Shown: in pieces, positions 23,525 to 24,211 of the stretch | Position numbering within the stretch: position 1 is the stretch's first letter | Layout: every line of letters begins with the position of its first letter | DNA from: a virus | Length of the DNA stretch: 24,403 bases | Reading direction: 5' to 3' (one strand) | Virus record (IMG/VR): IMGVR_UViG_3300035698_004351 | Span: 1 to 24,403 of that record | Notes under the pieces: generated by a model | What the model saw: only the letters and a program-made list of their open reading frames with translations | The model's database searches: none | What the model was told of the DNA's origin: nothing | Made by a program: the position numbers and the translations under genes

Positions 23525-24067
23525 TCAAATGTGAGTCCAGAATTCCCTGCCTACTATCCTGTGGACATATTTAGCTGTTACTCCATAATCTTTGGCAATA
23601 TTTCTATGAAGCTCTTTGTTTAAAGCCCTCGACCTGATATTTTTTATATCCTTGTCGGTTAGCTTTGATCGAGGGTTGTTTTCGCCGGTGATACTTACTA
23701 ATCCTATACGGAAAGCATGTTTGTTATTTTCAGAGCATGTAACTAATTCCAAGTTATCAAGCCTATTGTCAGTTTTAATTCCGTTTATGTGATTCATCAC
23801 TAAGCCTCGCGGTATATCACCATTGAAATATATCCATATTATTCTATGCACGAGACAGGCTACTTGCTTGCCATTAACAGCTATAAAAACTTGAAGATAC
23901 CCTTTGTCATGGTTCTTGCTTCCCACCATTCTTGGCTGTATTTTTTCATCCTTATTCTTCCAACGTTTCGTCATTAAACGCCAGATTTCCCCGGTATCTC
24001 TAATCTCAAAATACCCCTTGTTAATCATATCAATAAAATAGTGTTCGTTGTTTGCAGACTTACTCAT
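23525..24067 (-). CDS. HNH homing-type endonuclease, 180 residues
   Basis: ATG 24067 (GAGGA upstream) rather than TTG 24106, which lies in the terminator stem. The HNH core spans about residues 70-118: VHR with His 74, MNHINGIKTDNRLDNLELV with Asn 92, His 93 and Asn 101/105, and SENNKHAF with Asn 115 and His 117; this is the HNH_3-like arrangement typical of phage free-standing homing endonucleases. An N-terminal beta region (GEIWRLMT, GYLQVFIAVNGKQVACL) resembles NUMOD4-type DNA contacts, and the C-terminal KLTDKDIKNIRSRALNKEL to TAKYVHRIV is a helix-turn-helix. It is preceded by its own promoter and attenuator-like leader, so it looks like a self-contained cassette inserted after a 22-residue ORF. 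Confidence 0.88.
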   Translation of the reverse strand: MSKSANNEHYFIDMINKGYFEIRDTGEIWRLMTKRWKNKDEKIQPRMVGSKNHDKGYLQVFIAVNGKQVACLVHRIIWIYFNGDIPRGLVMNHINGIKTDNRLDNLELVTCSENNKHAFRIGLVSITGENNPRSKLTDKDIKNIRSRALNKELHRNIAKDYGVTAKYVHRIVGREFWTHI

Positions 24068-24081
24068 AGTGTTCCTCACAA

Positions 24082-24144
24082 AAAAAGCGATACCCCTGTG
24101 GTCCAAGAAACTACGGATAGTTTCAAACAGGAATATCGCTTTTT
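24082..24144 (-). terminator. Terminator/attenuator in the HNH leader
   Basis: Minus-strand RNA: AAAAAGCGAUA (24144-24134) pairs with UAUCGCUUUUU (24092-24082), then CCUG with CAGG (24131-24128 with 24098-24095), and an inner perfect hairpin GAAACUA-UCCG-UAGUUUC (24124-24107). U7 ends the structure and the HNH ribosome site begins 2-4 nt later. Promoter start is about 34 nt upstream of the stem. Confidence 0.75.
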
Positions 24145-24177
24145 AATATCATATAAAAACTCCGTAGTATCTTGGAC
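24101..24177 (-). promoter_or_regulatory. Alternative long-range pairing that would break the terminator
   Basis: The RNA 5' end GUCCAAGAUACUACGGA (24177-24161) is complementary at 16 of 17 positions to UCCGUAGUUUCUUGGAC (24117-24101), which lies inside the terminator loop and contains one arm of its inner hairpin. The two folds exclude each other except as a pseudoknot, the layout of an antiterminator/terminator switch. Confidence 0.6.
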
Positions 24178-24183
24178 TGTTTA

Positions 24184-24211
24184 ATTATAACACATTAATT
24201 CTAAATGTCAA
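24184..24211 (-). promoter_or_regulatory. Strong promoter of the HNH gene
   Basis: TTGACA (24211-24206), 16-nt spacer, TATAAT (24189-24184), with TGT before it as extended -10; consensus at both boxes. Predicted start at A24178/G24177, exactly where the antiterminator strand begins. It matches the portal promoter at 29 of 33 positions. Confidence 0.85.

Follow-up and report, generated by a model that had tools for sequence, protein, structure and literature searches.

Leaders whose 5'-terminal RNA hairpin pairs with the apical loop of an intrinsic terminator, here called kissing terminators, appear on balance to constitute an undescribed RNA class. The 5' hairpin in these RNAs would read the terminator loop through a freely varying code of 7 nt. 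Phages, above all those of Bacteroidota, would use such leaders to gate early replication operons, and homing endonuclease cassettes would carry them along. In the 24,403-nt stretch of viral DNA analysed here (the window), a leader upstream of an HNH endonuclease gene would represent a divergent, hairpin-less version that is equipped with a leader ORF and belongs to a phage with sigma-70-type promoters.

Selfish nuclease genes must spare their phage, and little is known about how they are restrained outside T4-like phages. Gating of a terminator via its own loop would be a compact means of control. Taken together, the related leaders form a natural set of at least 20 kissing pairs, with several per phage and with cultured Flavobacterium phages included. 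The idea is therefore directly testable, and the pairs could serve as a toolkit of independent attenuators.

Anatomy of the HNH gene leader

The HNH gene lies at the right end of the window. Phage structural and terminase-like genes, whose roles were partly read from the sequence, are found on the minus strand. The interval between the promoter and the HNH gene is occupied by a leader of 111 nt, and the features of this region are as follows.

24184-24211, minus strand: sigma-70 promoter with an extended -10 TG, 12/12 consensus match
24161-24177, minus strand: segment A, the RNA 5' end, complementary to the terminator loop
24160-24163, minus strand: Shine-Dalgarno (SD) sequence GGAG of the leader ORF, overlapping the end of A, 7-nt spacing
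24123-24152, minus strand: putative leader ORF MILKSDIPV*, over terminator arm B
24127-24144, minus strand: terminator arm B, AAAAAGCGATATTCCTGT, pairing with B'
24107-24124, minus strand: inner 7-bp hairpin GAAACTA-TCCG-TAGTTTC, -4.3 kcal/mol
24101-24117, minus strand: segment A', inside the terminator loop, pairing with A
24082-24099, minus strand: terminator arm B', ACAGGGGTATCGCTTTTT, pairing with B
24080-24086, minus strand: T-run of the intrinsic terminator, seven T's
24074-24077, minus strand: SD sequence GAGG of the HNH gene
23525-24067, minus strand: HNH homing endonuclease gene, 180 aa, Pfam HNH_3 (E 7.2e-18), with its ATG start codon at 24067

The initial annotation had described a consensus promoter that starts RNA at a 17-nt segment complementary to the loop region of a terminator right before the ribosome site, and this description is borne out. 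The promoter hexamers TTGACA (24211-24206) and TATAAT (24189-24184) are separated by 16 nt and predict a +1 position at about 24178 on the minus strand. Segment A (GTCCAAGATACTACGGA, 24177-24161) pairs with A' (TCCGTAGTTTCTTGGAC, 24117-24101) at 16 of 17 positions. The terminator had been called perfect; its stem does consist of 18 contiguous pairs, two of which are G-U, and it merits that word only if wobble pairs are allowed. Its loop measures 27 nt and contains the inner hairpin, and the T-run lies just upstream of the HNH SD sequence. The latter (24077-24074) and the start codon are almost wholly unpaired in the predicted fold, which contains no hidden ribosome binding site of the mobE or I-TevI type.

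The leader had also been thought to choose between two mutually exclusive folds. This applies to the inner hairpin, which is the only element that shares bases with A' and which competes with A:A'. The long helices A:A' and B:B' use disjoint bases; together they would form a pseudoknot with the order A-B-A'-B', and their apparent exclusivity arises mainly from the inability of ordinary folding programs to represent pseudoknots. The folding check that had been suggested does return two nested folds of equal energy up to the U tract (-29.3 versus -29.2), from programs that exclude the pseudoknot. Each long helix reaches -24 to -25 kcal/mol as a separate duplex. The double structure would be connected by links of 16, 9 and 1 nt, which is tight, yet 'not impossible' by estimate rather than computation. 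The 5' element of the leader is without a stable hairpin: a weak AAGAT/GTTTT stem can be drawn around ACTACGGA, and none is present in the fold.

This architecture exceeds chance expectation. The leader folds with a z score of -4.24 relative to shuffled sequences. Crossing stems were scored as the weaker of the two stems in the order A-B-A'-B', and the value of -27.3 kcal/mol obtained for the leader is reached by none of 2000 shuffles (best -16.7; extrapolated p about 2e-8). The best other 150-nt tile in the window, among 1942 tiles, scores -16.9 kcal/mol. When the upstream regions of about 90 HNH genes were compared with those of other ORFs of the same loci, strong crossing stems were present at 5/90 HNH genes versus 1/241 other ORFs (Fisher 0.006).

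No short leader peptide had been recognized in the initial annotation, which overlooked nine codons and a stop (ATG ATA TTA AAA AGC GAT ATT CCT GTT TGA) preceded by GGAG. Any combination of an SD sequence and a mini-ORF arises in 5% of shuffles, and an ATG with GGAG in 0.4%; at these rates the leader ORF is suggestive and no proof. A short ORF that has an SD sequence and covers a terminator arm is a feature of leader-peptide attenuators, and a run of regulatory codons, which was also looked for in MILKSDIPV, is absent.

The statement that no known ligand-binding motif is visible agrees with Rfam, where the leader has no match and only chance hits with E about 4. A DNA search of the phage collection likewise found no relative of the leader, its match being a stretch of 80 nt within the HNH gene that recurs in two Streptococcus prophages. 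A terminator-pattern scan of IMG/VR returned five matches; those examined sit in unrelated, mostly coding DNA and include no leader homologue. The HNH protein itself has distant relatives only, and searches for homologues of the phage gave two weak relatives by terminase and none by the next gene. Among the other HNH leaders of the sigma-70/SD type with a terminator that were examined, there is no further kissing leader.

Kissing-terminator leaders of Bacteroidota phages

Two of the HNH leaders with crossing stems (L044 and L048) begin with a hairpin whose loop is the complement of the terminator loop. Two pattern scans of IMG/VR, one for a T-run directly before a MEIW-type HNH start, which is blind to kissing, and one for the promoter-hairpin region, yielded dozens of such leaders. 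They start with a promoter (TAnnTTTG, which we take to be the Bacteroidota-type consensus), followed by hairpin 1, whose loop is 8 nt long and in most cases reads AGUNNNNN. A spacer rich in A and T, about 20 nt in length, leads to hairpin 2. The inner stem of hairpin 2 is short, an internal loop UGAU/UGAU is often present, and the outer stem ends in T's. The apical loop of the terminator kisses the 5' hairpin loop over 7 bp, and in most leaders an ATG lies within about 15 nt of the terminator T's.

A strict detector finds 72 unique cases in 2.35 Mb of fetched loci versus 16 in shuffled copies, counts that do not translate into a genome-wide rate because the loci were fetched partly by leader patterns. 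In an alignment of 38 leaders, 95% of cells are paired and both sides change in 19 of 20 pairs. The covariation score is 0.70, compared to 0.17 for shuffled and about 0.1 for slid alignments, and 0/500 shuffles reach it. The kissing helix is paired in all 38 rows and is represented by 20 different 7-mers. Since the detector demands complementarity, pairing was checked on a set chosen without regard to kissing. Of the 15 5' loops picked first in this set, 12 are matched by the terminator loop of the same leader over 7 nt or more. Among the remaining three, the wrong hairpin had been picked in two, and the correct loops of these do match; a G-U pair accounts for the third. Compensatory changes, whose absence from homologues had been named in the initial annotation as grounds for refutation, are thus strongly evident in the analogous leaders. 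The inner stem holds the kissing bases in an apical loop, so that kissing and terminator coexist. This clear loop-to-loop pairing with the terminator hairpin folded is a second argument against mutually exclusive folds.

The family extends to cultured Flavobacterium phages. In vB_FspS_mumin9-1, hattifnatt9-1 and their relatives, one leader precedes an HNH gene (NC_048837, 11678-11757, in mumin9-1), and a second leader, whose kissing sequence is different, lies upstream of a gene block leading to helicase and primase. The second leader differs between mumin9-1 and hattifnatt9-1 at 12 of 126 positions; two of these differences fall in A (GTGGAACG to GTGAGACG), and exactly two compensate for them in A'. 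In FCL-2 and its relatives, one leader precedes gp54. Other leaders are located before genes for a Prim-Pol/DUF3987 primase (L316, and by sequence likeness L303), an N6/N4 methyltransferase (L110) and a possible HTH replication protein (L106). The leader of a GIY-YIG nuclease gene (L289) is nearly identical to that of an HNH gene (L109). Several leaders with differing kissing sequences occur in the same contig or genome in L209, L318, L251, L118, L197, L106 and mumin9-1.

Those of the analogous leaders that were compared with Rfam have no match there. A GTDB scan for the hairpin-2 core gave one real case, in a Bacteroidetes MAG (L328), and nine chance matches. A covariance search of 395 Bacteroidota genomes, which was insensitive with 11 candidates scored per genome, was empty.

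In the window leader, as in this family, an intrinsic terminator sits directly before a gene and its loop is complementary to a 5'-terminal element of the RNA. Unlike the family, it carries no stable hairpin with an 8-nt loop at this element, forms a 17-bp rather than a 7-bp pairing, and uses a sigma-70 promoter and an SD sequence. The 1-nt link between its A:A' helix and B' also makes its geometry tighter. A search of the window with the family covariance model R2 gave no hit with an E value of up to 1. The window leader would work like a kissing terminator, yet is no family member.

Proposed transcription attenuation and alternative explanations

The window leader may be a promoter-proximal transcription attenuator with a default OFF state that holds the free-standing HNH gene nearly silent, an explanation to which we give about an even chance of being correct. 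It upholds the earlier idea of a structured leader near the promoter, with a terminator to be passed before the HNH gene. The promoter, A, terminator, SD sequence and HNH gene follow one another in order and with exact spacing, and the crossing stems are both beyond chance and enriched upstream of HNH genes. The covariation in analogous leaders, the compensation between mumin9-1 and hattifnatt9-1, and the leader ORF with its SD sequence also count in favor of attenuation. Other results count against it. The covariance model of the Bacteroidota family does not recognize the window leader, which is also devoid of a stable 5' hairpin. The searches described above revealed no homologue of the window leader, which therefore lacks covariation of its own, and the 38 analogous leaders lack a conserved leader ORF (a closed ATG ORF of at least 5 aa is found in 7/38).

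In the proposed mechanism, the RNA would begin at A, which would pair with the loop of the following terminator to create a pseudoknotted leader. Most polymerases would halt at the T-run before the HNH SD sequence, and the HNH gene would be expressed from read-through only. In the analogous Bacteroidota phage leaders, the pairing joins two folded hairpins, coexists with the terminator and probably stabilizes it. On the simplest view, kissing would assist or lock the terminator in the family, and expression would result from read-through. The gate in the window would most simply be translation of the nine-codon leader ORF, whereby a ribosome would free A and cover arm B, letting polymerase pass. 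We infer from this arrangement that termination occurs, that A:A' pairing favors it and that the leader ORF acts as the gate, and the direction of control and its signal are deduced in the same way.

It is less probable that the same elements act with the opposite sign. The window A:A' helix, with 17 bp and only 1 nt to B', could hinder termination instead: A:A' would form before B' is made and block closing of the terminator, such that the HNH gene would be ON unless A is removed. A:A' does form first in growing-chain folding, neither nested fold has an energy advantage up to the U tract, and the short A'-B' link strains simultaneous closure. An antiterminator keeps some of its probability because of this tighter geometry, but A:A' and B:B' share no bases, and in the family a separate stem closes the apical loop that contains the kissing bases, which allows both structures to coexist.

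We consider it improbable that the element exists to make the terminated RNA, about 97 nt long, as a phage small RNA that would target further leader copies in trans, with the HNH gene riding along. A promoter, a structured RNA and a terminator do amount to a complete small RNA gene, and the differing kissing sequences among leaders of one phage are expected if specificity matters. The CI RNA of phage P4 provides a precedent: it pairs with sites located within its own leader and thereby causes termination (PMC4825925). However, the window holds no other site of at least 11 nt complementary to A or the loop, an opposite-strand promoter over the leader is represented by weak matches only, and the intramolecular partner is always nearer.

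The attenuator explanation must also be weighed against two views in which the pairing of A has no role in the RNA. Terminators are common near mobile genes, and one might simply shield the HNH gene from transcription, with the match between A and the loop a functionless by-product. This is very doubtful for a terminator that sits downstream of the gene's own consensus promoter, in a leader whose A:A' pairing exceeds chance and has an equivalent that is kept by covariation elsewhere. Least probable of all is that the nested inverted repeats serve at the DNA level as an operator or cleavage-like site through which the HNH protein represses its own promoter. Autorepression of this kind, by promoter binding, is known for I-TevI (PMC2988022). 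Together, however, the order A-B-A'-B', the T-run and the loop-to-loop complementarity form an RNA layout, and family sequences vary freely while pairing is kept.

Known systems and other structured leaders

The initial annotation regarded regulated leaders of free-standing homing endonucleases as undescribed, which was overstated. T4-type homing endonucleases, including free-standing ones such as those encoded by mobE and segB, are controlled by RNA hairpins, late promoters, terminators and RNase E sites (PMC2988022, PMC3014915). Hairpins that hide the ribosome binding site or late promoters operate for I-TevI, I-TevII, I-TevIII, segB and Aeh1 mobE (PMC2988022, PMC3014915). As is proposed for the window, RNA structure before the gene keeps expression low or late. 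The I-TevI-, segB- and mobE-type hairpins cover the ribosome site and thus act on translation, whereas the window structure leaves the SD sequence largely free and has the form of a transcription terminator.

The closest functional parallels are pT181-type attenuators and P4 CI RNA. In pT181-type attenuators such as the repC leader, an upstream hairpin or segment of the 5' leader is combined with an intrinsic terminator, and RNA pairing sets read-through (PMC4878617). Orthogonal variants of these attenuators differ in a short kissing sequence (PMC4878617), as do the family leaders. Their 5' segment pairs with a terminator stem arm and their signal is an antisense RNA; A of the window pairs with the loop, not with a stem arm, and a search for an antisense promoter over the leader gave only weak matches. 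As proposed for the window leader, P4 CI RNA and IsrK of Gifsy-1 belong to phage leaders with a short terminated RNA and a read-through message (PMC4825925). There, a processed RNA pairs with separate target sites, whereas the partners in the window are the 5' end and the terminator loop of one short leader. The int-alpA RNA (RF02996) resembles the window in placing a structured terminator directly before the SD sequence of a phage gene; its fold differs, and neither the window nor any of the kissing-terminator leaders that were tested matches it. A sub-threshold match to this RNA (31.9 bits versus 35.8) lies directly before an HNH gene in another locus (L039, 375-447), where the loop AACCTC could pair with a downstream GAGGTT.

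Searches of open-access papers returned no description of loop-to-loop gated terminators before homing endonucleases, and with this scope the novelty of the family is provisional. A group I intron, an IscB-type guide RNA and a CRISPR-like repeat were considered and dropped, with no supporting match for any. The segment 24160-24120 of the window (minus strand; GTTTTTATATGATATTAAAAAG...TTTGAAAC) has CRISPR-repeat-like ends, which are taken as coincidence.

Several other phage genes have leaders with related layouts. An HNH leader in L047 (1325-1475) follows a TATAAT promoter and contains two crossing stems, of about 16 and 21 bp, in the order A-B-A'-B', with no T-run; its crossing-stem score is -23.0 (0/2000 shuffles), its fold z score is -5.5, and the close relatives that were looked for are lacking. 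In a PinkBerry-associated phage (L014), the HNH gene is preceded, upstream of 1165 and after a TATAAT-like box, by a long leader that looks structured, GCATCTT...AAGGTGC enclosing inner stems. Genes for a 123-aa protein (for example, MELWLAASLFFGG...) in L337, L339, L346, L351, L352, L355, L359 and L374 show an attenuator-like layout, in which a TATAAT-like promoter is followed at once by a terminator hairpin and then by an SD sequence.

Two further elements of the window are worth recording. A small ORF (MKNFYTTTELSRQINQQDTGCF, 24283-24211, minus strand) ends where the HNH promoter lies and may be the truncated start of a DNA-binding protein gene that was broken when the HNH cassette arrived. 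At 21206-21087 on the minus strand, a second promoter (TTGACA-16-TATATT) is followed by two small hairpins and a strong terminator. This element precedes a small-terminase-like gene, has a fold z score of -5.0 and no kissing loops, and looks like a small RNA gene or another attenuated leader.
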